From assembly GCF_001411475.1 (NCBI RefSeq), contig NZ_LLWH01000001.1:124001-188000 (forward strand): a DNA stretch of 64,000 nucleotides. Direction: 5' to 3'. The translations under genes and the position numbers were made by a program. The notes under the pieces are model-generated. The model made no database searches, was not told the origin of the DNA, and worked only from the letters and a program-made list of their open reading frames with translations. Below, piece after piece: positions 37,358 to 51,083 of this stretch (its first letter is position 1; each line of letters opens with the position of its first letter). The stretch comes from Pseudomonas endophytica. GTDB taxonomy: Bacteria > Pseudomonadota > Gammaproteobacteria > Pseudomonadales > Pseudomonadaceae.

Positions 37358-39262
37358 ATGAAATGCGACCCCAACCTTTATCGCGGTGCCCCGCCCTCTC
37401 TTGCCGTGAAACCACGTCTGCTTCGACATCTACTGTTGCCGCCGCTGATTATCTTGCTGATGATCGGTCTGGGTTATGCGGGTTATCGCATCAGTGAGCA
37501 CTTTAGTGTTGTTACCCTCAGCGAAAGCGGTGAGCGCCAGCTTGAGCTGCACGCACGCACGGTCGAAAGCGAACTCAGCAAATACACCTACCTGCCCAGC
37601 TTGCTAGAGCTGGAGTCCAGTGTTTCCCAGTTATTGGCTGATCCGACTGTGCAAAATCGGGTCACCGTCAATCAATACCTCGAAGGTCTTAACCGCCGCA
37701 GCCGCAGCCGGGCGATCTACGTCCTCGACACAACAGGCCGAGTCGTGGCCACCAGCAACTGGCGCGATAGCGACAGCTATCTGGGCGAAGACTTGTCCTT
37801 TAGGGCTTACTTTAAGGACGCGGTGCGCGGGCAGCCCGGACGCTTTTATGGGATCGGCAGCACCACCGGCGAGCCAGGCTACTACTTAGCCCACGGTCTT
37901 GAAGAGCAAGGCAAAATTATTGGCGTGGCAGTGATCAAAGTACGCCTTGAAGCCCTTGAAGAACGTTGGCAGCGCGCCCGCCTCGAAGCGTATGTGAGTG
38001 ATGAAAACGGCATCATCATTCTGTCCAGTGATCCGAGTCGGCGGCTCAAGTCAGTACGCCCGCTGACCGCTGACGTTAAAGAACAATTGGCGCGCAGCCT
38101 GCAGTATTACTGGTGGCCACTCGTAGAACTGCAACCCCTTGAGCGCGAGCGGCTGGGTGAAGGGGTCGAGAAAGTGACCTTTACCGCCAGCAACGAGATC
38201 ATGACCGACGACAAAGAGGTCAGTTATCTGGCCCAGACCCGTAAGCTTAACGACACGCCATGGGACATCACTCTACTCACGCCCCTGCAAGATTTACGTC
38301 GTGCAGCGGCCAACCAAGGCATGTTGGTAGCTGGCGCGTTTGCTCTGTTGGCTTTTCTGCTGATCGCTTGGAACGAACGGCGCAAAGTCATCGCCACCCG
38401 ATTGGCGGCCCGCGAAGCGCTCCAAGAAGCCAACAGCCAGCTGGAACGCAAAATTACCGAGCGTACGGCTCACTTGCGCGCCAGCAACGAACGTTTAAAG
38501 GGGCAAATTCGCGAACGCCGTCAAGCTGAAGAAACCCTACGCCGCGCCCAAGACGAACTGGTGCAGGCCGGAAAACTGGCTGCTATCGGTCAAATGTCCA
38601 CCAGCATTGCCCATGAGCTGAACCAGCCTCTGGCAGCACTGCGCACACTGTCTGGCAATACCGTGCGCTTTCTGGAGCGCGGAGACCTGACAGTCGCTAC
38701 CAACAACCTCAGCACCATTAATAATTTGGTCGACCGCATGGGCCGAATTACCGCCAATCTGCGCTCGTTTGCACGGCGTGGTGAAGATCTTGGCCAAGCC
38801 AATTTGAACAAAGCCGTCGACACCGTGTTGCAGTTACTTGCCAGTCGTCTCGAAGCCTCGGGTGTTGAACTGCACCGAGATTTCATTGATGTCGCGCTCA
38901 AGATAGATCAAACCCGACTCGAGCAAATCCTGCTCAATTTGATCGGTAACGCTCTGGATGCCCTGCAAGACCAGCCTACTGCCCCACAACTGTGGCTTGA
39001 GGGTGCACACAGTGAGGATAAATACCGGATCTGTGTGCGCGATAACGGCCCCGGCATAGCCCCTGAAAACCGCAAGCATCTGTTTGAACCTTTTTTCACC
39101 ACCAAGCCCGGCGAACAGGGTCTTGGCCTTGGTTTGACCCTGTCTGCCAGCCTTGCGGCGGCAGCGGGCGGCAACCTCGGCGTCGAGTTCCCGCAAACCG
39201 GTGGTGTTGCATTTGTCCTCCTTTTACCGCTGGTGTTACCCGCTAAGGCCGAGCCGATATGA
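37358..39262 (+). CDS. aauS: Sensor histidine kinase AauS for acidic amino acids
   Basis: A 634-residue DctB-type membrane kinase. A first membrane helix lies at about residues 25-43, then a double-Cache-like periplasmic domain to about residue 320, a second helix (MLVAGAFALLAFLLIAW) near 325-340, a coiled coil, and the kinase core. The phospho-acceptor is His419 in SIAHELNQPLAAL; the N, G1 and G2 boxes are NLIGNALDALQ, VRDNGPGIAP and GLGLGLTLS. It should sense glutamate/aspartate and phosphorylate AauR. A GTG at 37355 is also possible. It overlaps aauR by 4 bp. Confidence 0.93.
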   Translation: MKCDPNLYRGAPPSLAVKPRLLRHLLLPPLIILLMIGLGYAGYRISEHFSVVTLSESGERQLELHARTVESELSKYTYLPSLLELESSVSQLLADPTVQNRVTVNQYLEGLNRRSRSRAIYVLDTTGRVVATSNWRDSDSYLGEDLSFRAYFKDAVRGQPGRFYGIGSTTGEPGYYLAHGLEEQGKIIGVAVIKVRLEALEERWQRARLEAYVSDENGIIILSSDPSRRLKSVRPLTADVKEQLARSLQYYWWPLVELQPLERERLGEGVEKVTFTASNEIMTDDKEVSYLAQTRKLNDTPWDITLLTPLQDLRRAAANQGMLVAGAFALLAFLLIAWNERRKVIATRLAAREALQEANSQLERKITERTAHLRASNERLKGQIRERRQAEETLRRAQDELVQAGKLAAIGQMSTSIAHELNQPLAALRTLSGNTVRFLERGDLTVATNNLSTINNLVDRMGRITANLRSFARRGEDLGQANLNKAVDTVLQLLASRLEASGVELHRDFIDVALKIDQTRLEQILLNLIGNALDALQDQPTAPQLWLEGAHSEDKYRICVRDNGPGIAPENRKHLFEPFFTTKPGEQGLGLGLTLSASLAAAAGGNLGVEFPQTGGVAFVLLLPLVLPAKAEPI

Positions 39263-40584
39263 ACCACGAGCTGACCGTCCTGATCGTTGAAGACGACCCT
39301 CATGTTCTGCTGGGGTGCCAACAGGCACTCGCACTGGAAGACATCCACAGCGAAGGCGTCAGCAGTGCCGAGCAAGCGCTGGCACTAGTCGGAGACAACT
39401 TTCCCGGCATCGTCATCAGTGACATTCGCTTACCGGGGATAGACGGCCTAGAACTACTTAAAAGGCTCAAGGCCCGTGATCGCAGCCTGCCGGTTGTGTT
39501 GATTACAGGGCACGGCGATATTTCTATTGCCGTCGGCGCAATGCGCGACGGAGCCTATGATTTCATGGAGAAACCGTTCTCACCGGAACGACTGGTCGAT
39601 GTGGCACGCAGAGCGCTGGAACAACGCAGCCTGGCCCGTGAAGTGTGGTCGCTGCGCCGGCAACTGGCCGAGCGCGATTCACTGGAAGGCCACATCATCG
39701 GGCGCTCGCCCGCTATGCAGCAATTGCGCGAACTGATCGCCAACGTCGCCGATACCTCTGCCAACGTGCTAATCGAAGGCGAAACTGGCACCGGTAAAGA
39801 GTTGGTTGCCCGTTGCCTGCACGATTTCAGTCGCCGTAAGTCTCAGCAGTTTGTGGCCCTTAACTGCGGAGGACTCCCGGAAAACCTATTTGAAAGCGAA
39901 ATCTTCGGCCACGAAGCCAATGCGTTTACCGGTGCTGGAAAACGCCGGATCGGCAAAATCGAACACGCCAACGGCGGCACGCTGTTTCTCGACGAAGTCG
40001 AAAGCATGCCGCTCAACCTGCAAATCAAGCTTCTGCGGGTGTTGCAAGAGCGAACGCTGGAGCGTTTGGGCTCCAACCAGAGCATTGACGTCGATTGCCG
40101 GGTGATCGCCGCGACCAAATCGGACCTCGATCAACTGGGCAAAACCGGCCAATTTCGCAGCGACCTGTATTACCGCTTAAACGTGGTCACCCTCGAATTA
40201 CCGCCACTGCGCGAGCGCCGCGAAGACATCCTGCAACTGTTTGAATATTTCTTGCAGCAATCGTCTCTGCGCTTCGACCGCACCCCACCTGAACTGGACA
40301 ACCAAACCCTGTCCAGCCTCATGAGCCACGACTGGCCAGGCAACGTGCGCGAACTGCGTAACGTGGCCGAGCGTTTTGCTTTGGGCCTGCCCGCCTTTAA
40401 AAAATCGGGCAACAGCACCTCACAGGGGCTGGGCTTTTCAGAGGCGGTCGAAGCCTTCGAGCGGACCTTGCTCAGCGACGCCTTGCAACGCAGTGGCGGC
40501 AACTTGACCCAAGCCAGCCAAGAACTGGGTATGGCCAAAACCACACTTTTTGACAAAGTTAAAAAATACGGGCTCGCGCACTGA
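39259..40584 (+). CDS. aauR: Sigma-54-dependent response regulator AauR
   Basis: A 441-residue DctD-type activator: receiver domain with phospho-acceptor Asp55 (VISDIRLPGIDG), AAA+ domain with Walker A GETGTGKE (about residue 174) and Walker B GGTLFLDEVES, and a Fis-type helix-turn-helix at the end (GGNLTQASQELGMAKTTLFDKVKKYG). The sigma-54 contact loop reads NAFTGA instead of GAFTGA, which may be a lineage variant. It should activate aatJQMP through TTCGG-N4-CCGAA sites. Its stop overlaps glpM by one base. Confidence 0.94.
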   Translation: MNHELTVLIVEDDPHVLLGCQQALALEDIHSEGVSSAEQALALVGDNFPGIVISDIRLPGIDGLELLKRLKARDRSLPVVLITGHGDISIAVGAMRDGAYDFMEKPFSPERLVDVARRALEQRSLAREVWSLRRQLAERDSLEGHIIGRSPAMQQLRELIANVADTSANVLIEGETGTGKELVARCLHDFSRRKSQQFVALNCGGLPENLFESEIFGHEANAFTGAGKRRIGKIEHANGGTLFLDEVESMPLNLQIKLLRVLQERTLERLGSNQSIDVDCRVIAATKSDLDQLGKTGQFRSDLYYRLNVVTLELPPLRERREDILQLFEYFLQQSSLRFDRTPPELDNQTLSSLMSHDWPGNVRELRNVAERFALGLPAFKKSGNSTSQGLGFSEAVEAFERTLLSDALQRSGGNLTQASQELGMAKTTLFDKVKKYGLAH

Positions 40585-40973: not shown

Positions 40974-41033
40974 TTTACCCTTAAAAGCCCGCCCGGCCTA
41001 GCTCGGCGGCGGTTGAAAGGGGTAAATACCACG

Positions 41034-41954
41034 TTGAACATTCTCGATCTCGATCACAGCCTCACCGCGCAGGCGCCTGTTGCGCAGCGCTTGGCCGATG
41101 GCCGCGCAACGCGTCTCGACTTACTGGCCTTAGGCCCAAAATTGCGGCTTTGGTCAACCGAGCGCAATTACCAACGCTTCGTTAAACACCTGCAACAACG
41201 CCCAAAACCCTCTGCACACAGCCCGGAAATCTTCTTTGTCGGCTCTGGTGATTATCACCACCTGACGCCAGCGCTGCTGTCTGGGCTGAGCGAGCCAGTG
41301 ACGCTGATCCACTTCGACAACCACCCTGACTGGGTCCGTTTTGCACCCCGTCGTCATTGCGGATCGTGGGTCAATCGTGCGCTGCAACTGCCTTTTGTCC
41401 AACGCGTCATCACCCTTGGCCCGTGCAGTGACGATCTGCAAAGCCCGCAGTTTAAAGGCGCTAACCTCAGGGCCTTGAGCCGAGGCACGTTGCAGCTTTT
41501 TCCTTGGCAGCATGCGCCCAGCAAAGTCTGGGGGCGGATTGGTGATGGCGCAGGCCACCAACAGCGTGAAAACCTTTTGCATTGGCGCAACCTGGCCGAT
41601 CAAGACTGGCCCGCCTTTATTGACCAACTGATTCAGAGCCTGCCGACCACGGCGGTGTGGATCACTATCGACAAAGACGTGCTTGCCAGTGAAGACGCGG
41701 CGACCAACTGGGATCAAGGCGGCATGCGTCTGACTCATTTATTGCACGCCCTCCGCGCCCTGGCCTCCAACAAGCGCGTCGTGGGCATAGATGTGTGCGG
41801 TGAGTTTGCTAAAGCCCCGCACAGTCATGTGCTCAAACGCTGGGAGGCTAAGTCTGACCAACCGCCCTTAGACCGCTGGAGCGAAACCGACCTCTTACGC
41901 AACGCAACCACTAATGAGGCGCTGATGTCGCTTTTTGAGGAGTTATTTGCATGA
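41034..41954 (+). CDS. Arginase/agmatinase-fold (ureohydrolase superfamily) protein
   Basis: A 306-residue protein with a degenerate but complete ureohydrolase metal site: FVGSGDYHHLTP supplies the first His, IHFDNHPDW the D-x-H-x-D ligands (about residues 93-99) and WITIDKDVL and GIDVCGEF later acidic positions. The usual guanidino-specific loops are not recognisable, so arginine need not be the substrate. The start is uncertain: no ATG is available, TTG 41034 gives LNILDLDHS, TTG 41013 adds seven residues. It is coupled by a 4-bp overlap to an SMR-type transporter pair, hinting at an amine or guanidino compound as substrate or product. Confidence 0.75.
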   Translation: MNILDLDHSLTAQAPVAQRLADGRATRLDLLALGPKLRLWSTERNYQRFVKHLQQRPKPSAHSPEIFFVGSGDYHHLTPALLSGLSEPVTLIHFDNHPDWVRFAPRRHCGSWVNRALQLPFVQRVITLGPCSDDLQSPQFKGANLRALSRGTLQLFPWQHAPSKVWGRIGDGAGHQQRENLLHWRNLADQDWPAFIDQLIQSLPTTAVWITIDKDVLASEDAATNWDQGGMRLTHLLHALRALASNKRVVGIDVCGEFAKAPHSHVLKRWEAKSDQPPLDRWSETDLLRNATTNEALMSLFEELFA

Positions 41955-42325
41955 CGTTCATAGTGGTTGTGTTGGTGGCGTTTTCTATCGTGCTCGATGT
42001 GATCGGGCAACTGTGTTTCAAGATCGGCCTCGACCGCTTGCCTGAGCTTGAGGGCGGTTTTCGGCTGAATGCTTTTTGGCTGCAAGTGTTTAACGCGCCC
42101 ATGCTCTGGGCCGGGGTCGGCGCTTACGTCATCGAGTTTTTTGTCTGGCTGCAAGCCTTGTCACGCGCACCGCTGAGCCTGTTATTTCCTGCCGCAGCGC
42201 TGGCGTATTGCGGCGTGGTATTCGCCGGTAAGGTGTTACTCGGCGAGTACGTCAGCCGTCGGCGCTGGATGGGAACATTGGTCATCACCCTTGGCGTGAT
42301 GCTGGTCTGCTTCGCCGCCGCTTAA
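41951..42325 (+). CDS. Small DMT/SMR-type membrane transporter subunit 1
   Basis: A 124-residue protein with four hydrophobic helices (TFIVVVLVAFSIVLDVIGQ, MLWAGVGAYVIEFFVWLQAL, PLSLLFPAAALAYCGVVFA, WMGTLVITLGVMLVCFA). The end of helix 3 and LGEYVSRRRWMGTLVI follow the EmrE/EamA half-transporter pattern. The conserved Glu expected in helix 1 of EmrE is not obvious; an acidic residue (D) lies in the first helix instead. It overlaps the arginase-like gene by 4 bp and is followed 11 bp later by a second such gene, so a heterodimer is likely. Confidence 0.8.
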   Translation: MTFIVVVLVAFSIVLDVIGQLCFKIGLDRLPELEGGFRLNAFWLQVFNAPMLWAGVGAYVIEFFVWLQALSRAPLSLLFPAAALAYCGVVFAGKVLLGEYVSRRRWMGTLVITLGVMLVCFAAA

Positions 42326-42336
42326 GGAGCCTAGTC

Positions 42337-42756
42337 ATGGAAAAAACTCAACCGATAAACACACACTCTAACGGCTGGTTACACGGCCGATTAGGCACCG
42401 TGGTGCTGTGGGCGCTGCTGATCACCCTTGAAAGCAGCGGGCAGATCGCCACCAAACTAGGCGGCGACCAACTGGGGGAGATGGCTTTTAGCTTGCATTG
42501 GCTGCAAGCCGTAATGAGCGACACCGGCGTTTGGGTGGCGATTGCGTGCTACATCGGCGCTTTTTTTGTGTGGATGCTGATTCTTCGGCGCAGCAGCTTA
42601 TCGCTAGCATTTCCACTGAGTTCGTTGGTATTTGTCGGTGTTTTGCTGGGGTCGTGGCTGGGCCTGGGAGAACATATCAGCCTGCTGCACTGGGCAGGGG
42701 TGGCCGTGATTATTGTCGGGATTGCATTGCTGGCTGAGGGTGAGCCGGAGCATTGA
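42337..42756 (+). CDS. Small DMT/SMR-type membrane transporter subunit 2
   Basis: A 139-residue protein with a 20-residue polar N-terminus followed by four helices. Helix 1 contains a Glu (VVLWALLITLESSGQIATK), matching the EmrE position, and later segments are WVAIACYIGAFFVWMLILR, LAFPLSSLVFVGVLLG and WAGVAVIIVGIALLAEGE. The pairing of a Glu-containing and an Asp-containing half suggests an asymmetric heterodimer such as MdtIJ, which exports polyamines. Substrate unknown. Confidence 0.8.
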   Translation: MEKTQPINTHSNGWLHGRLGTVVLWALLITLESSGQIATKLGGDQLGEMAFSLHWLQAVMSDTGVWVAIACYIGAFFVWMLILRRSSLSLAFPLSSLVFVGVLLGSWLGLGEHISLLHWAGVAVIIVGIALLAEGEPEH

Positions 42757-42862: not shown

Positions 42863-43621
42863 TTAGAACTTATAACTCACCGCCGTCTGCACGGTGCCTT
42901 GATTCACATCGCCCAGTTCTTGAACGATGCTGCTGTGCGCGGCAGAACCTACCAAATGTATCCAACTGGCACTGGCCACCAGCGACCAATGCTGCGCCAG
43001 CGGAATTTCAACGTTTTGGGTCAAGGTCACGTTCTGAAAACCGCCGCTCGCGTTGTAGGGTGAGAGGCCCGAAGCCTGAGCCTCACCAGCGTTCACACCA
43101 AAGAATGTCGAGGTTTGGCGGCCATCGGCAAAGTGAGCTGACAATTGGCTGCTGCCAATTACCCCGCCCCCCAGCGGATACCCTAACTCCCCGCCCACCT
43201 GCCCCAATACGCCGCCCTGCCCACCGGCACCGCCCACCGCTTGACCAACTTGCGCGTATACCCGCCAGAAGTCCGCCGGGCTGTACTGCACAAAGCCGCC
43301 GAGTTGCGCCATGTCGGGCACATCGCGTAAACCTCGCAGCGAACCATTGGCCGTGCGGCCCGGCAAATAGTTGATAAACGGCCCGGCACTCCAGCCTTGG
43401 GTGTTGAGCGCACTCCACGTTAAGCCATCGTCAGTGTCCAAACTGAACTCGCCCCAATCCACATCGAAATAAGGCAGCGGCACGGTCTGGTAACGGCTGC
43501 CACTTGGGTCGTAGGGCTGATACCCCACCCCTGCTCCCACTTCGCCACTCGGGCCATCGCCCGCATGCGCGCCCGCGCTCAGCAAGGTGAGCAGTAAAAA
43601 AGCTGACAAGGAGGTTTTCAT
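42863..43621 (-). CDS. MipA/OmpV family outer membrane protein
   Basis: A 252-residue outer-membrane beta-barrel protein. A signal peptide (MKTSLSAFLLLTLLSAGAHA) is followed by alternating strands with MipA/OmpV features (GVGYQPYDPSGSRYQTVPLP, FSLDTDDGL, STFFGVNAGEAQASGL) and a C-terminal Phe (AVSYKF), as barrel insertion requires. The frame extends 20 residues upstream, but ATG 43621 has GGAG eight bases before it. It is on the opposite strand to its neighbours and separates the two sigma-54 gene groups. Confidence 0.88.
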   Translation of the reverse strand: MKTSLSAFLLLTLLSAGAHAGDGPSGEVGAGVGYQPYDPSGSRYQTVPLPYFDVDWGEFSLDTDDGLTWSALNTQGWSAGPFINYLPGRTANGSLRGLRDVPDMAQLGGFVQYSPADFWRVYAQVGQAVGGAGGQGGVLGQVGGELGYPLGGGVIGSSQLSAHFADGRQTSTFFGVNAGEAQASGLSPYNASGGFQNVTLTQNVEIPLAQHWSLVASASWIHLVGSAAHSSIVQELGDVNQGTVQTAVSYKF

Positions 43622-43693
43622 CTTGGTGACTCCAAACACGTTCATGCGCGCATCAATTGCTTTTTTGGTCGAGCGACGCAAGCACTCATGTTG

Positions 43694-43720
43694 TTTGTAG
43701 CAAGCTACAAAAATTGTAGC
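43694..43720 (+). promoter_or_regulatory. Palindromic upstream activator site for the phosphatase-aminotransferase operon
   Basis: TTTGTAGC-AA-GCTACAAA (43694-43711) is an inverted repeat with 8-bp perfect arms, followed by a third half-site TTGTAGC (43714-43720). It lies 63-90 bp upstream of the -24/-12 promoter, the distance usual for NtrC-type enhancers. It also lies upstream of the divergent mipA-like gene. Confidence 0.6.
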
Positions 43721-43782
43721 TCCATGCGACCAGTTTCCACGTTTGCGTCTGCAAAGCCCACGCCCGCAGGGCTTTGGCGAGT

Positions 43783-43798
43783 TGGCATAGTCAGTGCA
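43783..43798 (+). promoter_or_regulatory. Sigma-54 promoter of the phosphatase-aminotransferase operon
   Basis: TGGCATAGTCAGTGCA has GG and GC exactly 12 bp apart and conserved TGGCA and TGCA cores. It ends 48 bp before the HAD phosphatase start. The operon ends with an NtrC-type activator carrying an intact GAFTGA, so autoregulation is plausible. Confidence 0.75.
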
Positions 43799-43846
43799 AT
43801 CCCCTGTTTATGCGCAAGTGCGCTTCTCCTCAACAGGACAAAGCAG

Positions 43847-44542
43847 ATGATGCAATGGCATATCGTGTGTGACTTCGACGGGACCATCACCCGTACCGAC
43901 GTCATCGACAACATTCTTCAACGCTTCGCCGACCCGCATTGGGAAACGATCGAAGCGCAGTGGCTGCAAGGTGAAATAGGCTCGCGTGAATGCTTGAGCC
44001 GCCAGCTGTCGCTGGTAAAAGCCTCACCCGCCCAATTGTTGGCTTATTTCGACACGGTGCAGATTGACCCCGACTTCCCGGACTTTGTTGATCACGTCAT
44101 CGGCCTCGGCGCCACCCTTGAAGTGGTCAGCGACGGCATCGAACAGGGCATCGCGCGCATTCTGGCGCGTCACTATGTGAGCCTGTTGCCGATCCTCGCC
44201 AACCGCCTGCGCCAAGTCGATCAGAACAGCTGGCGCATCGACTTCCCGTACGCCAGCGACGCCTGCCGTGCCGCTTCGGGCAATTGCAAATGCAAGTCCA
44301 CCCCTAGCGGCAAACGTGTGCTGGTGATTGGCGATGGCCGCTCCGACATGTGCGTTGCCTCAAGCGCCGACTTTGTATTTGCCAAAGACAGCCTGGCCAC
44401 TCATTGCGAACGCAACGGCATCCCGTATGCGCGCTTCGACTCTTTCGCTGAACTCCCAGCCTTGCTTGGCAAATTGCCGAGCAACGCCGTTAACGCCCCT
44501 CTTTACTCTCGTGACCAGCAGGAACTCTTCAATCATGTCTGA
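43847..44542 (+). CDS. MtnX-like HAD-IB family phosphatase
   Basis: A 231-residue phosphoserine-phosphatase-type HAD protein. The nucleophile and acid are D9 and D11 in VCDFDGTIT, motif II is in EVVSDGIEQG, and motif IV is GDGRSDMCVASSADFVFAK. A Cys pair motif GNCKCKS occurs before it. It resembles MtnX (methylthiopentenyl phosphate phosphatase) and phosphoserine phosphatases, but no methionine salvage gene is near. The frame reaches up to 43688, across the sigma-54 promoter; ATG 43847 (ATGATG) has ACAGGAC upstream. It overlaps the aminotransferase start by 8 bp. Confidence 0.85.
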   Translation: MMQWHIVCDFDGTITRTDVIDNILQRFADPHWETIEAQWLQGEIGSRECLSRQLSLVKASPAQLLAYFDTVQIDPDFPDFVDHVIGLGATLEVVSDGIEQGIARILARHYVSLLPILANRLRQVDQNSWRIDFPYASDACRAASGNCKCKSTPSGKRVLVIGDGRSDMCVASSADFVFAKDSLATHCERNGIPYARFDSFAELPALLGKLPSNAVNAPLYSRDQQELFNHV

Positions 44543-45929
44543 TATCCGAATCGCTAGCGCTGAAGACCAGATTCTTCTAGATAAAGAAGCCAAATACTGC
44601 TCGTACGGTGACACCGTTCACTACATCGAACCTCCACGCATTTTTAGCCGTTGCGAAGGCTCTTACGTATGGGACACCGAAGGCCAGGCTTACCTTGATT
44701 TGCAAATGTGGTATTCGGCGGTGAATTTCGGTTACGCCAACCCACGCCTGAACAACGCGTTGATTCAACAGATCGACACCCTGCCGCAGATCGCCAGCCA
44801 ATACCTGCACAAAGGCAAGATCGAGCTGTCGGAGCGTATTGCGGTCGACGCCAAGAATAAGTTTGGCCTCGACGGCCGTGTTCACTTCAACGTCGGCGGC
44901 TCGCAGTCCATAGAAGACTCATTAAAAGTGGTACGTAACGCCAGTAACGGTAAGAGCCTGATGTTCGCGTTTGAAGGCGGCTATCACGGTCGGACCTTGG
45001 GCGCATCCTCAATCACCTCAAGCTACCGCTACCGTCGTCGTTATGGCCACTTTGGTGAACGCGCCAACTTTATCCCGTTTCCCTACCACTTCCGCGGCCC
45101 TAAAGGCATGAGCAAGGAAGAGTACGGCAGCCACTGTGTGCAGCAATTCGCGCGTTTATTTGAAACCGAATACAACGGTGTGTGGGACCCCAAAGTGGGC
45201 CAAAGCGAATACGCCGCGTTTTACGTCGAGCCGATCCAAGGCACGGGTGGTTACGTTATTCCACCGATGAACTTTTACCGCGAACTTAAGCAAGTGCTGG
45301 ATCAGCACGGCATTTTGATGGTGGTCGACGAAATCCAAATGGGCTTTTGGCGTACCGGTAAGCTGTGGTCGATTGAACACTTCGACGTTAAACCTGACGT
45401 AATCGTATTCGGTAAGGCATTAACCAACGGCCTCAACCCGCTAGGCGGCATCTGGGCCCGTGAAGAACTGATTAACCCTAAAGTGTTCCCGCCGGGCTCG
45501 ACACACTCCACGTTCGCCTCCAACCCGCTGGGCACCGCGGTCGGCTTGGAAATGTTCAAGATGACCAGCGAAATCGACTACGGCGCCATGGTCATGGAAA
45601 AGGGCAGATACTTCCTCGCCGGTCTGCAAGAGCTGCAAAAGCGTTACCCGATCATTGGCGACGTCGACGGTCTGGGCCTCGCCCTGCGCTGCGAAATCTG
45701 CGCCGCTGACGGCTTTACGCCAGACAAAGCCACCCTGGACTTCATGGTTGAAGAAGGCATGAAGGGTGACATTGAAATCGACGGCAAGCGTTTGGGACTG
45801 ATTCTGGACGTGGGCGGCTACTACAAAAACGTCATCACCTTGGCGCCGTCGCTGGAAATAAGCTATGCGCAAATCGACTTGGGCTTGGCCCTGCTCGACC
45901 GACTGCTGCACCGGGCGATGAAACGGTGA
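44535..45929 (+). CDS. Class III PLP-dependent aminotransferase
   Basis: A 464-residue aminotransferase. The PLP Lys is K294 in FGKALTNGLNPLGG; the cofactor Asp is in VVDEIQMGFWRTG, and GGYHGRTLGASS is the phosphate-binding stretch. It belongs to the ornithine/4-aminobutyrate/diamine group that transfers to or from omega-amino or amino-aldehyde substrates. ATG 44535 is chosen because it follows the family start MSDIRIASAEDQ; a longer frame from 44328 runs through the phosphatase gene. Between phosphatase and hydrolase in one operon, its likely job is to make or remove an amine on a small metabolite; the substrate is unknown. Confidence 0.88.
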   Translation: MSDIRIASAEDQILLDKEAKYCSYGDTVHYIEPPRIFSRCEGSYVWDTEGQAYLDLQMWYSAVNFGYANPRLNNALIQQIDTLPQIASQYLHKGKIELSERIAVDAKNKFGLDGRVHFNVGGSQSIEDSLKVVRNASNGKSLMFAFEGGYHGRTLGASSITSSYRYRRRYGHFGERANFIPFPYHFRGPKGMSKEEYGSHCVQQFARLFETEYNGVWDPKVGQSEYAAFYVEPIQGTGGYVIPPMNFYRELKQVLDQHGILMVVDEIQMGFWRTGKLWSIEHFDVKPDVIVFGKALTNGLNPLGGIWAREELINPKVFPPGSTHSTFASNPLGTAVGLEMFKMTSEIDYGAMVMEKGRYFLAGLQELQKRYPIIGDVDGLGLALRCEICAADGFTPDKATLDFMVEEGMKGDIEIDGKRLGLILDVGGYYKNVITLAPSLEISYAQIDLGLALLDRLLHRAMKR

Positions 45930-46792
45930 TCGCGTCAGAGATCGACTTGGGCGAAGGCGACGCCGGTTTCGTTCTCGGCACAGGCGAGGTCGGGGTCTTA
46001 TTGATCCACGGCCTCACCGGCACCCCGACGGAACTTCGTCGGGTCGCTCAGGGCTTGGCCAAAGACGGAACCTGCACAGTCTACGTGCCGACCTTGGCCG
46101 GGCACTGCGGTGACAACAGCGACCTGCAAGCCACGGGCTGGCAAGACTGGTACGAAGGGGTGCGCAAAACCTTTGTCGAGATTCGCCGGCGTCACCAACA
46201 GGTGTTTGTCGGCGGTTTGTCGATGGGGGCGGTGATGTCGATGTACGTCGCTAGCGAACACCCAAGCCAAGTCGCCGGTTTGCTGATGTACTCCACCACC
46301 TTGCGCTACGACGGTTGGAGCATCAACAAACTGGCGTTCCTGACTCCGTTACTGATGGCGATACCCGGCGGTGTGCACTTGTGCAGCTTTGAAGAAAAAC
46401 CGCCCTACGGCATCAAAAACGAACGCTTGAGGGCGATTGTCGAACGGCAGATGAAAGCGGGCGAAAGCAGCAATGCCGGGTTGTTAACCATGGAGGGCGT
46501 GACTGTTCGCGAACTGCATCGGATGAACGCGGTGGTGAAAAAACGCATGCCGTCGATCAACACACCCGCGCTGGTGGTGCACTCCCTTGAAGACGACATC
46601 ACTAGTCGCTGGAACGCCGACTATGTTGAGCGCCACCTCGGTGGCCCGGTGACCAAAGTGTTCCTCGACAACTGCTACCACATGATCACCGTCGACCTGC
46701 AATACCGCCGGGTGATCGACTTAAGCGTCGCCTTTATCAAAAAGAACAGCCCAGCGTCACAGCCACCGATTGAGTATTTGCAACAAGCCTGA
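45926..46792 (+). CDS. Alpha/beta-fold hydrolase (Est30-like carboxylesterase)
   Basis: A 288-residue serine hydrolase. The oxyanion motif is LLIHGLTGTPTELR, the nucleophile is S99 in VGGLSMGAVMS, and the acid and base are in SLEDDITSRW and NCYHMITVD. The pattern matches the thermostable carboxylesterase Est30/monoglyceride lipase group. It starts with GTG overlapping the aminotransferase stop (GTGA), so expression is coupled. An ester or thioester intermediate is implied in the pathway, but this is inference. Confidence 0.87.
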   Translation: MIASEIDLGEGDAGFVLGTGEVGVLLIHGLTGTPTELRRVAQGLAKDGTCTVYVPTLAGHCGDNSDLQATGWQDWYEGVRKTFVEIRRRHQQVFVGGLSMGAVMSMYVASEHPSQVAGLLMYSTTLRYDGWSINKLAFLTPLLMAIPGGVHLCSFEEKPPYGIKNERLRAIVERQMKAGESSNAGLLTMEGVTVRELHRMNAVVKKRMPSINTPALVVHSLEDDITSRWNADYVERHLGGPVTKVFLDNCYHMITVDLQYRRVIDLSVAFIKKNSPASQPPIEYLQQA

Positions 46793-46807: not shown

Positions 46808-47932
46808 ATGATTACCGCCCAAGCCTTTTCATCCATTCAGGCCATCGAGCGCGACGTCCGGAATGATTGTTTTCCAGATGCTCTTGAGGATTGTGATTAC
46901 ATCATGGCGGTGGAAAACTCTGGTATTGAGGGCTTCGAATGGCGTTACCTGACGCTGTTTGAAGGCTCAACCCTGATTGCGGCGGCGACTGCATTTACCA
47001 CCCGCTATCGGCTCGACACCACGGTTCAAGGCCTCAGTAAGCGCTTTACCGAGCAACTTAACCGCGCGCTGCCTGGGCTGATGCAGTTGCCGCTTTACGC
47101 CATCGGCTCGCCGGTCACAGAACAGTGCAACGCGGGCACTGCCAGCCATATTCCAGCCTCAGAGCGCCCAGCGCTGCTCGCTCAATTGCTGGCTTTGGCG
47201 CACCGTGACGCGGCCCAACTGGGCATCGGTTTGATCGCCGTCAAAGATGTGCCCAGCCACGACAACGACTGGTCGCAAAGCTGCCAAGCCGCAGGGTTTG
47301 AGTCGATGCCCAGCTTGCCCAGCGCCCTGCTGCCAGTGCCCTACAGCTCGGTAGAGCGTTACCTTGAGGCTCTGGGTAAATCTACTCGCAAAGACATGCG
47401 CCGCAAGCTGCGTGCGCCAGAGCCGCGTGTGGAATGGCGCAACCAGATTGACGACGTGTTGCCCGAGGTTATGCGCCTGTACGAAGCCACGCTGGGGCGC
47501 AGTGATTTGCAGTTTGAACGCTTACCCCCCGCTTATTTCACCGGTATTCTCCAGCAACTGGATAACCGGGCACGGTGCGTGTTGTATTGGATTGAAAATG
47601 AGTTGGTTGCTTTCAATCTGGTCCTGATTGACGAGCACCGTCTGATCGACAAGTTTTTTGGCCACGACCTTACACTCAGCCGAGAGTACAACTTGTATTT
47701 CAGAAGCTGGGTCGTGAATATCGACTACTGTATTCGCAACAACATAGCGCTATACGAATGCGGCCAGGCCGGCTACGCCAGCAAGATACGTCTGGGCTGT
47801 ACCTTTCAAAACAACTTACTGTTCTTTCGTCATCGCAATCGGTTGATCAACGGCGTGCTCAAAATGGTCAAACTGTTTATTCGCCCTGATCGCCATGACC
47901 CTGCTCTGGCTGCCGCAATAAGCGAGTCATAA
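46808..47932 (+). CDS. FemAB/GNAT-like N-acyltransferase (COG3146-type)
   Basis: A 374-residue protein with two tandem GNAT-like halves. Patterns such as WRYLTLFEGSTLIAAATAFTT in the first half, GKSTRKDMRRKLR in the linker and RCVLYWIENELVAFNLVLI ... ECGQAGYASKIRLG in the second resemble the peptidogalycan biosynthesis/FemAB (PF04339-like) group, which forms amide bonds on amine acceptors. No signal peptide or membrane helix is evident. In this operon it could acylate the amine made by the aminotransferase. It is joined to the kinase gene by a TAATG overlap. Confidence 0.72.
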   Translation: MITAQAFSSIQAIERDVRNDCFPDALEDCDYIMAVENSGIEGFEWRYLTLFEGSTLIAAATAFTTRYRLDTTVQGLSKRFTEQLNRALPGLMQLPLYAIGSPVTEQCNAGTASHIPASERPALLAQLLALAHRDAAQLGIGLIAVKDVPSHDNDWSQSCQAAGFESMPSLPSALLPVPYSSVERYLEALGKSTRKDMRRKLRAPEPRVEWRNQIDDVLPEVMRLYEATLGRSDLQFERLPPAYFTGILQQLDNRARCVLYWIENELVAFNLVLIDEHRLIDKFFGHDLTLSREYNLYFRSWVVNIDYCIRNNIALYECGQAGYASKIRLGCTFQNNLLFFRHRNRLINGVLKMVKLFIRPDRHDPALAAAISES

Positions 47933-49692
47933 TGCCCATCACGCCTGAATCATCGCGCAAACCCCAGCCCTTCAAGGTGTCGCGCTGGACGGTACAGCGC
48001 AAATTACTCTTGGCTTTTTGGCTAGTCAGCGTCGTCCCCACCATGATCGCCGCTGAACTGGCCGCCACCACCTTGTCGCAGATTTTCGACAGTAACGTTC
48101 GGGTCTGGCTGCAAGAGTCGACCAAAATCGTCAAAGACGAGATCAGCGAAATCCTTCAGGACAACGCCCGTGTCGCCAAACTGTTCTTGCAGTACACCCA
48201 TCCGCCGTCCAGCCATACAACCCCCAACCCCGACTCGCTCACCGCAGATATAGCCGACGCCATAGGCATTGATGTGGTGGCGTTAATTCGCGATAGCGAC
48301 CATAAAGTGGTGTTCAGCACGGCCAGCGACAACATCGTCGACCAGATCAGCCTGGCCCCCAACGCCGTCTTGCAAACCATCAACGTCGGCGGCGTACCGA
48401 CCGGCACCGTGGTGTCGACCTTCACTACCTCGCAGGGCGGCGTGGACTACGAGCTATTGGTCGCGACGTACATGGACAGCAGCTTCCTGACCAGCGTGGC
48501 CGATGTGCATTCACTCGACCTGCGGCTGTACCTGTCCAACGCTGACGGTTTTGCCGAGATTTTCTCCAGTCAGCATTTTGATGACCGTACGCCCATACTC
48601 TCCCACAGCATCGAAAAGACCCTGCGTGAAACCAAGCTGCCCAGCGAGCAATTCACCAGCCGATACAGCGGCTTGTACTGGCCCATTTTTAATGACAACG
48701 GGGAGTTGCAAGGTGTGATCTACAGCGGTTTGCTGCGTCACACCAGCCTCGTCGGGCGGGTCAACCAAACCAACTTGTTCGTGCTGATCTTTTTGCTCGG
48801 TTCGCTGTTCTCACTGACCGTTGGCTGGTGGGTGTCAAAACGACTGACGCGCCCGGTACGCGCTTTGGCCGAAGGCGTACGCGCGGTCACGGCGGGCGAT
48901 TACCGACAGCGAGTCGGCGTATCGGGGCACGATGAATTGGCTGAATTAAGCAGCACCTTCAACCATATGACGGCGCGACTGGGCGAGTTACAGCACCTCG
49001 AAGCTCAACTGCGTCGACGTGACCGCCTGCATGCCTTAGGTGAAGTGGCAATGGGCTTGGCCCATGAGATCCGCAACCCGCTGGGTATTATCAAAACTGC
49101 GACCCAATTACTGCATCGCAGGGCCGACCTTGGCGAAACCGACAAGCGCCATCTGCACTACGTGGTCAGTGAAGTGACGCGGATTAACGAGCTGATTACC
49201 GAGTTCCTCGACTTTGCCAAACCCAGCGCACCGGTGCGTTCACAACAGCCCGCACGGCCATTGGTCGACGATATTTTAGGTTTCTGCGAACCCGAGCTGA
49301 AAAGCCACAATGTCGAGGCCCATATTGACGATCAAGCCCCTGATGCGACCCTTTATGCAGACACTGGGCAGTTGAAACAGGCGTGCCTGAACCTGATTAT
49401 CAACGCCATCGACGCGATGCCCGAAGGTGGGCACCTGACTGTGCGTATTGCTCAGGATGACAGCGGCGATACCGTATTGAGCATTAGCGACACTGGCCAA
49501 GGTATTGAACCTGACATGATCGAGCGAATTTTCACCCCATTTGTCACCACAAAAGCCTCGGGCACAGGGTTAGGTTTGCCCAAAGTATTCTCGATCATGG
49601 AAAACCATGACGGTCGTGTTGAATGCATCAGCGAAAAAGGTGCTGGCACCACCTTCAACTTGTACATCCCGGCTCATGGAGGGAATGAGTGA
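47932..49692 (+). CDS. Membrane sensor histidine kinase (operon-linked)
   Basis: A 586-residue kinase: helix 1 at about residues 24-45, a periplasmic sensor domain of about 230 residues, helix 2 near 281-302 (LFVLIFLLGSLFSLTVGWW), HAMP, then the NtrB-like kinase core. The phospho-acceptor is H378 in GLAHEIRNPLG; ATP motifs are NLIINAIDAMP, ISDTGQGIEP and GTGLGLPKVF. It pairs with the NtrC-type regulator that overlaps its stop. The input signal cannot be inferred; the sensor region resembles dCache/four-helix types. Confidence 0.9.
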   Translation: MPITPESSRKPQPFKVSRWTVQRKLLLAFWLVSVVPTMIAAELAATTLSQIFDSNVRVWLQESTKIVKDEISEILQDNARVAKLFLQYTHPPSSHTTPNPDSLTADIADAIGIDVVALIRDSDHKVVFSTASDNIVDQISLAPNAVLQTINVGGVPTGTVVSTFTTSQGGVDYELLVATYMDSSFLTSVADVHSLDLRLYLSNADGFAEIFSSQHFDDRTPILSHSIEKTLRETKLPSEQFTSRYSGLYWPIFNDNGELQGVIYSGLLRHTSLVGRVNQTNLFVLIFLLGSLFSLTVGWWVSKRLTRPVRALAEGVRAVTAGDYRQRVGVSGHDELAELSSTFNHMTARLGELQHLEAQLRRRDRLHALGEVAMGLAHEIRNPLGIIKTATQLLHRRADLGETDKRHLHYVVSEVTRINELITEFLDFAKPSAPVRSQQPARPLVDDILGFCEPELKSHNVEAHIDDQAPDATLYADTGQLKQACLNLIINAIDAMPEGGHLTVRIAQDDSGDTVLSISDTGQGIEPDMIERIFTPFVTTKASGTGLGLPKVFSIMENHDGRVECISEKGAGTTFNLYIPAHGGNE

Positions 49693-51083
49693 TGAGCCAT
49701 AACCTATTGGTCGTCGACGATGAACCCAAACTGTGTGACCTGCTCAGCTCGGCGCTGTCCCAGAACGACGTTCAAGTGTTTACCGCAAGCAACGGTCTGC
49801 AAGCCTTGGCCATGCTTGAGCAGGAAGACATCGACCTGGTGATCAGCGACTGGCGTATGCCGGGGATGGACGGCCCGCAGTTACTGGCCGAGGTCAAACT
49901 GCGCTACCCGCAATTACCGGTGATCGTGATGACGGCCTACAGCACGGTGAAAAACGCCGTACAGTCGATGCGCAACGGCGCCTACGACTACATAGCCAAA
50001 CCCTTCGACATCGACGAACTCGATATCACCGTCAGCAAAGCCCTGCAATTTCGCGACATCCTGCGCGACAACGCGCGCATGCGCGCCGAGCTTGATGAGC
50101 ATCAGCAGATAGACAGTTTGGTCGGCGATAGCCCGAGTTTTCGTCGCGTGCTGCACGCCATCGACTCCGTACGCGACAGCAATGCCACCATTTTGCTGAC
50201 CGGCGAAAGCGGCACCGGCAAAGAGATGGTGGCGCGGGCCATTCATCGACACGGTAGCCGTGCTGACAAACCCTTTGTCGCGGTTAACTGTGCGGCCATT
50301 CCTGAAGGGCTACTAGAAAGCGAGATGTTTGGCCATCGCAAAGGCGCGTTTACCGGCGCACTGGCTGACCGGGTCGGGCGTTTTATGCAGGCCGATAAAG
50401 GCACGTTATTTCTCGATGAAGTGGGCGATATGCCGTTGGCCTTGCAGGCCAAAATTTTGCGAGCCCTGCAAGAGCGCGTGATTGAACCTGTTGGCGACTC
50501 CCGTGAGCGCAAAGTGGACGTGCGGGTGATTGCTGCGACCAACAAAAACTTGCTGGCGGCTGTGGCCAACAAAGAGTTTCGTGAGGACCTGTACTACCGC
50601 TTAAATGTCTTCCCAATCCCACTGCCTGCCTTGCGCGAGCGCGTGGAAGACATTGCGCCACTGGCGCGGCACTTTGCCCACAGCTTGGGAGCCACGGCGG
50701 GCAAAAGGATCACCGGATTTAGCCCGAGCGCGTTACAAGCAATGATGACGTACACCTGGCCAGGGAATATTCGTGAACTGCAAAACTGCGTCGAGCGCGC
50801 CACCATCGTCGCCAACAGCGGCACGATTGAAGACAGCGATTTACCGCCTTACCTGTTCAGCGCTCAGCCCTTACAGAACAGCGACCTGATAACCCCGTCA
50901 GTAAGCGTACCGCCTGACCTAGAAGCCGCCTTGGCCGAGGTAGAAAAGGCTTACATCTTGGCAGCCTTACAACAAGCGCAAGGGGTGCAGGCGGCGGCAG
51001 CGCAATTGATCGGTATTTCAGAAAGGAGCTTTTGGTATCGCCTGAAAAAGCTCGATATTCATGTCGATAAAATTGTCAGGTGA
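49692..51083 (+). CDS. NtrC-family sigma-54-dependent response regulator (operon-linked)
   Basis: A 463-residue activator. Receiver domain with Asp53 (ISDWRMPGMDG), AAA+ domain with Walker A GESGTGKE, an intact GAFTGA loop (RKGAFTGALADRVG), Walker B GTLFLDEVGDMP, and a Fis-type DNA-binding helix-turn-helix at the end (VQAAAAQLIGISERSFWYRLKKL). It overlaps the kinase stop by one base (TGATG). It is the last gene of the HAD-aminotransferase-hydrolase-acyltransferase run, whose own promoter is of the sigma-54 type, so direct autoregulation is likely. Confidence 0.92.
   Translation: MSHNLLVVDDEPKLCDLLSSALSQNDVQVFTASNGLQALAMLEQEDIDLVISDWRMPGMDGPQLLAEVKLRYPQLPVIVMTAYSTVKNAVQSMRNGAYDYIAKPFDIDELDITVSKALQFRDILRDNARMRAELDEHQQIDSLVGDSPSFRRVLHAIDSVRDSNATILLTGESGTGKEMVARAIHRHGSRADKPFVAVNCAAIPEGLLESEMFGHRKGAFTGALADRVGRFMQADKGTLFLDEVGDMPLALQAKILRALQERVIEPVGDSRERKVDVRVIAATNKNLLAAVANKEFREDLYYRLNVFPIPLPALRERVEDIAPLARHFAHSLGATAGKRITGFSPSALQAMMTYTWPGNIRELQNCVERATIVANSGTIEDSDLPPYLFSAQPLQNSDLITPSVSVPPDLEAALAEVEKAYILAALQQAQGVQAAAAQLIGISERSFWYRLKKLDIHVDKIVR

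Follow-up and report, generated by a model that had tools for sequence, protein, structure and literature searches.

The locus analysed here raises the question of whether an operon that carries the gene of its own NtrC-type response regulator is switched on by that regulator, through a palindromic site and a sigma-54 promoter in front of its first gene. In the window (the whole 64-kb stretch of Pseudomonas DNA that was analysed) six plus-strand genes follow one another, encoding, according to profile matches, a HAD-IB (MtnX-like) phosphatase (43847-44542), a class III aminotransferase (44535-45929), an alpha/beta hydrolase (45926-46792), a FemAB-like/GNAT acyltransferase (46808-47932) and a membrane sensor histidine kinase with HAMP, HisKA and HATPase domains (47932-49692), with the gene of the NtrC-type response regulator (receiver, AAA+ domain with GAFTGA, Fis-type HTH; 49689-51083), the proposed activator and autoregulator, in last place. 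Overlaps of 1-8 bases are found within genes 1-3 and within genes 4-6, and 15 bp separate the hydrolase gene from the FemAB-like gene. The regulator gene is placed in this predicted operon behind the sigma-54 promoter and the gene order is kept in relatives, with the FemAB-like gene sometimes missing; a search at E 1e-20 did not detect it in 14 of the 78 relatives (L005, L007, L008, L015, L021, L027, L031, L048, L061, L063, L064, L066, L067 and L071), and it seems either to be dispensable for the operon or to have diverged. A MipA/OmpV-family outer-membrane protein is encoded divergently on the minus strand (42863-43621, profile match), this gene being the divergent neighbour in all 78 relatives that hold the first (HAD) gene, and mipA may share the control region of the operon.

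Regarding the layout of the control region, the 225 bp between mipA and the operon (43622-43846) contain the palindrome, the third half-site and the -24/-12 promoter that had been claimed in the preliminary description, all of which were present when the sequence was read again. The stretch TTTGTAGCAAGCTACAAA, read at 43694-43711, contains the exact 7+7 palindrome TTGTAGCAAGCTACAA (43695-43710), which is proposed to be a full binding site of the regulator, and the third half-site TTGTAGC follows on the plus strand at 43714-43720, 19 bp past the first half-site. The promoter TGGCATAGTCAGTGCA (43783-43798, plus strand) has the GG (43784-43785), the GC (43796-43797) and the GG-to-GC spacing of a -24/-12 element, and transcription of the operon would start near 43809. 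The distances from the sites to the promoter are 63-89 bp, which agrees within one base with the 63-90 bp given earlier. Two further elements belong to the region, a conserved flank adjoining the palindrome on its upstream side (43678-43694, plus strand; GCAAGCACTCATGTTGT in the window and GCAAGCACTSATSTTGTT in relatives) and a GC-rich inverted repeat within the enhancer-promoter loop (CAAAGCCC-N9-GGGCTTTG, 43752-43776).

Chance could account for the palindrome or for the promoter taken singly, but probably not for the combination. When the 225-bp intergenic region was shuffled 5000 times with dinucleotides preserved, 627 of the shuffles contained a perfect 7-bp inverted repeat with a gap of 0-6, 280 an equally good sigma-54-like site on the plus strand, and 10 such a repeat with a third copy at most 30 bp away; a search of the 64-kb window with the palindrome pattern gave a single exact match and, with up to 3 mismatches allowed, three matches where 2.8 were expected. 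The shuffles alone do not decide the matter, and the element was accepted as real because it is conserved across 79 promoters, namely that of the window and those of 78 relatives, which remained after two of 80 loci (L045 and L049, both without the HAD gene) had been dropped; the 80 relatives comprise 78 Pseudomonas and two unclassified gammaproteobacteria (L064 and L067). The sigma-54 GG and GC are kept in all 79 promoters, in which TGGCA and TGC are invariant, and scoring against a TGGCAC-N5-TTGCW-like pattern (maximum 11) gave 10 in 77 promoters and 9 in the window and in L022. None of the 79 promoters has more than 2 mismatches in the palindrome (51 have an exact one), and the third half-site stands at exactly +19 in every one of them, as TTGTAGC in 78 and ATGTAGC in one. 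The element had been described as TTGTAGC-N2-GCTACAA; the palindrome itself holds, but since 27 of the 79 promoters lack its inner C/G pair, the conserved core is better written TTGTAG-N4-CTACAA, which is exact in 76. Conservation averaged over alignment columns reaches 0.96 for palindrome plus third half-site and falls to 0.78 in the leader, 0.65 towards mipA and 0.59 in the spacer.

Palindrome and promoter are separated by 78-80 bp in 25 of the 79 promoters, by 88-91 bp in 52, and by 100 and 145 bp in one each, with no spacings of 81-87 or 92-99 bp; looping on a single face of the DNA would be expected to give such steps, each close to one helical turn. In 78 of the 79 cases the upstream enhancer and the promoter are in helical phase, the outlier being L066, whose palindrome is degenerate and whose 145-bp spacing differs from the other spacings by a fractional number of turns. 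On a midpoint-rooted tree of four operon proteins (FastTree) the spacing class changes eight times; the classes are thus strongly inherited, and the 79 spacings can by no means be treated as independent. Changes of exact length on the same tree number 19 for the palindrome-promoter interval, 38 between promoter and start codon and 40 between mipA and palindrome, and the corresponding phasing values (R) are 0.93, 0.69 and 0.24. The promoter-to-start control interval likewise shows some jumps of 11-13 bp, so a bias in indel size may have contributed to the spacing steps. For 61 Vibrio qrr enhancers, loop lengths have been reported to cluster at steps of about 11 bp between some 80 and 120 bp (PMC4740811).

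The search for further copies of the palindrome that the preliminary description had called for returned one exact copy in the 4.97-Mb genome. At up to 2 mismatches the palindrome occurs 13 times in this genome, the exact copy included, against 19 for the reversed control, which is background, and the right half with the third half-site occurs 69 times against 158, its sole exact place being the site itself. Across 249 Pseudomonas genomes the composite site (up to 2 mismatches) was found in 72, with one copy in each, and the reversed pattern in none. The orthologue of the operon's aminotransferase (at least 87% identity, with the next among the matches listed at about 33%) is present in 71 of the 249, all 71 of which also have the site (Fisher p ~3e-62, with genomes treated as independent of kinship), and in all 71 the site lies 836-923 bp from the aminotransferase gene. 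The single genome that has the site alone (G236) is best read as an assembly break, because its contig ends inside the HAD gene and the regulator is found on another contig. Among 40 of the 249 genomes, the regulator orthologue (E 1e-120) was detected in all 10 sampled from the 72 with the site and in none of the 30 sampled from the 177 without it, kinship being uncorrected. Site and operon are linked, so this co-occurrence links the site with the entire operon and does not distinguish the regulator from another dedicated protein. Since the site is found once per genome, the operon, possibly together with the divergent mipA, is probably the only strong target of the regulator.

Outside Pseudomonas, the aminotransferase was detected in five of the other 368 genomes of a class sample (E 1e-70) and in 77 of 117 genomes of one gammaproteobacterial family (E 1e-100), and 25 loci with both the HAD and the aminotransferase genes were examined, five from the class sample and 20 from 76 further aminotransferase-bearing genomes of the family. 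Within the sequence covered, which in L110 and L113 ends about 100 bp and about 2.1 kb past the aminotransferase and limits the absence there, 24 of the 25 loci lack the regulator; no close regulator was found in the family of L113. The palindrome is absent from all 24 (the best matches have 3-6 of 12 core positions wrong), and in the 350 bp that precede the HAD gene no sigma-54 site with both GG and GC scores more than 8 of 11; two of these loci have a promoter match scoring 9 without the GG. The remaining locus, L107, encodes a 52%-identical, kinase-linked regulator and has TGGCATGTCGCTTGCT before its HAD gene, with a sigma-54 score of 10; the TTGTAG palindrome is absent from it. The predicted promoter type follows the regulator, with L107 as the one positive case outside Pseudomonas. 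Footprinting of the site of the L107 regulator failed because one such genome only was found: a regulator of this type (E 1e-125) was returned by one of 233 genomes of the family, with seven candidates scored per genome among the matches listed, and by one of the eight genomes of its genus. L107 is also the only one of 21 loci of this family to have the two-component system. The HAD and aminotransferase genes of the family are often found near FemAB-like, hydrolase, arginase-like and small-transporter genes and apparently ACP and ketoacyl-synthase genes (L107, 11857-14353; L126; L116), the ACP-like and ketoacyl-synthase-like reading frames having been read by eye.

Lying about 5.9 kb downstream at its start and about 7.3 kb at its end, the regulator gene directly follows its histidine kinase gene. 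Its product matches the Pfam families PF00072, PF00158 and PF02954, all above cut-off, which identifies an NtrC-type enhancer-binding response regulator. The GAFTGA (residues 219-224) and Walker A (GESGTGKE) motifs, reported earlier to be intact, are so, as are FLDE and the receiver residue D54; the domains and motifs needed for sigma-54 action are present. Assignment to a named system was rejected in each case tried, the regulator scoring 447.8 bits as NtrC (cut-off 558.6), 478.3 bits as AtoC, the top model (cut-off 714), 401 bits as ZraR (cut-off 760) and 408.9 bits as the PEP-CTERM regulator PrsR (cut-off 502.6), and the kinase 222.7 bits as AtoS, its top model (cut-off 646). The regulator is predicted to work like NtrC, AtoC, ZraR and the PEP-CTERM regulator, yet it is filed as none of them. 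Solved structures comprise only general relatives, both for the regulator and for the aminotransferase.

Taken together, the locus is very probably a self-contained, positively autoregulated sigma-54 operon, driven by its own regulator through a composite enhancer. Autoregulation through this element, predicted in the preliminary description, agrees with almost all the comparisons made, being supported by its conservation, by the co-occurrence of site and regulator and by the helical phasing in 78 of 79 promoters, and also because loci in which the enzymes are seen without the regulator have neither the site nor a good sigma-54 promoter; binding by the regulator and dependence on RpoN are what we infer from these sequence comparisons. 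On receiving a signal the kinase would phosphorylate the regulator, dimers of which would occupy TTGTAG-N4-CTACAA and the lone half-site and assemble the AAA+ oligomer; through a DNA loop of about 80-100 bp, a step that the phasing supports, the oligomer would touch the sigma-54 RNA polymerase and open the promoter. As the gene order suggests, the whole operon, including kinase and regulator, would then be switched on in positive feedback.

Another regulator, such as a repressor or a global factor, could instead occupy the palindrome, with the operon's own regulator driving the sigma-54 promoter from another, unrecognised site. Such a binder would fit a conserved block that is longer than the palindrome, and also L107, in which a diverged regulator goes with no palindrome, but the composite site is present as a single copy per genome and, among the Pseudomonas sampled, is confined to those with the operon, unlike the sites of a global factor, the regulator is the only transcription-factor gene of the conserved operon, and the site is phased with the sigma-54 promoter, so that we regard this explanation as unlikely. 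We consider it very unlikely that the palindrome serves mipA, as an operator or as an overlapping sigma-70 promoter, and is unrelated to the sigma-54 operon. The divergent mipA in 78 of 78 relatives speaks for such a role; the distance from the palindrome to the mipA start, however, varies between 57 and 118 (259 in one case), with the 40 length changes and the R of 0.24, against 0.93, given above, and the empty result of a simple scan for sigma-70 promoters at 43550-43900 counts weakly against it as well.

Finally, the palindrome can be written as a short stem-loop and might then be an RNA hairpin or another transcribed element, but it lies upstream of the predicted transcription start, little variation and no compensatory change is seen in its six outer pairs, and the single Rfam match in 43500-44000 (E 0.4) is under its gathering score; this possibility can be given almost no weight.

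Regarding the other elements of the region, the palindrome and third half-site form part of a longer conserved block of 43 bp, in which the upstream flank is about as conserved as the palindrome (mean 0.95 over 43678-43693). Because the block exceeds palindrome and half-site, a second protein may bind it. In its own genome the flank has one exact match and three matches at 2 mismatches; allowing up to 3 mismatches gives 40, mildly more than the 24 of the control. The 3' arm of the inverted repeat ends 10-12 bp before the -24 element recurrently in relatives and 6 bp before it in the window, where the full stem was counted, and the mean stem at 11 bp before the -24 element is 4.19 against 0.61 +/- 0.16 in shuffles. 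Covariation is moderate: with 28 distinct arms, pairing with the own partner gives 4.25 against 3.91 +/- 0.13 for swapped partners, the highest of 2000 permutations reaching 4.43. The repeat was ruled out as a standard terminator by the simple-scan rule, and no classical intrinsic terminator was found by simple scan in 43550-43900.

An arginase-like protein and two ArnE/ArnF-like small transporters are encoded at 41013-42753, and these genes are perhaps part of the same biosynthetic neighbourhood. The arginase-like gene is near the operon in 45 of 78 relatives and the transporter genes in 59 of 78 each, some loci being cut by contig ends; weaker homologues are found near the enzymes in the other family, in 11 of 21 loci for the arginase-like gene and in 12 of 21 for each transporter. 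As a guess, the product of the operon is a lipid-linked or acylated small molecule. With low confidence, these elements may be joined into one co-evolving device, consisting of a private composite enhancer, a loop evolving nearly always by whole turns and a GC-rich repeat 10-12 bp before the -24 element that would insulate the promoter (as a weak terminator) or shape the loop; it would serve one conserved biosynthetic operon that has an exported or lipid-linked product and, in many genomes, arginase-like and ArnE/F-like genes linked to it.

The glnALG (glnA-ntrBC) operon of enteric bacteria, with its promoter glnAp2, is a sigma-54 operon of enzyme, kinase and NtrC-type activator, in which positive autoregulation works by looping from enhancer sites that are paired inverted repeats, placed about 100-140 bp upstream. 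The present operon shares this layout, with enzyme genes followed by kinase and NtrC-type regulator genes behind a sigma-54 promoter, but differs in its TTGTAG-N4-CTACAA site, in its enzymes and signal and in having probably a single target instead of a global regulon. AtoSC and ZraSR (NCBIfam) likewise combine a HAMP kinase with a sigma-54 response regulator, but the present proteins score below the AtoC, ZraR and AtoS cut-offs and the genes are different. The Vibrio qrr/LuxO system also has sites of an NtrC-like activator with a sigma-54 promoter and loop steps of a helical turn, but another activator is involved and the qrr targets are small-RNA genes and not the regulator's own operon (PMC4740811). 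For PrsK/PrsR, a cis site is reported that stands with a sigma-54 motif at a mean spacer of 62.8 nt and agrees in its phylogenetic profile with an NtrC-like regulator and its kinase, the cis motif ending in TTTACA and preceding 99 of 167 PEP-CTERM genes (PMC1569441). The same logic of matching a cis-site profile to an NtrC-like regulator applies here (PMC1569441), with a different motif, different target genes and a regulator under the cut-off of the PEP-CTERM model. No paper on the operon or its site was found among the best matches in the open-licence PMC literature. The design is already known, and the switch of this operon is unusually well documented by evolution.

Through this analysis an unnamed two-component system gains a candidate DNA site and a probable sole target; going by the aminotransferase, the operon of this system is present in 71 of 249 sampled Pseudomonas genomes. 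The analysis also adds another natural case of sigma-54 loops changing by whole helical turns, beside the Vibrio qrr enhancers (PMC4740811). An inducible handle on a conserved operon is provided as well, since forcing the regulator into its active state should turn the pathway on.

The window holds a further, AauR-like sigma-54 regulator in the neighbourhood of the operon (39259-40584), in which GAFTGA is replaced by NAFTGA. Five of 64 tblastn alignments above 70% identity do not show the motif, and the variant is present in the other 59.
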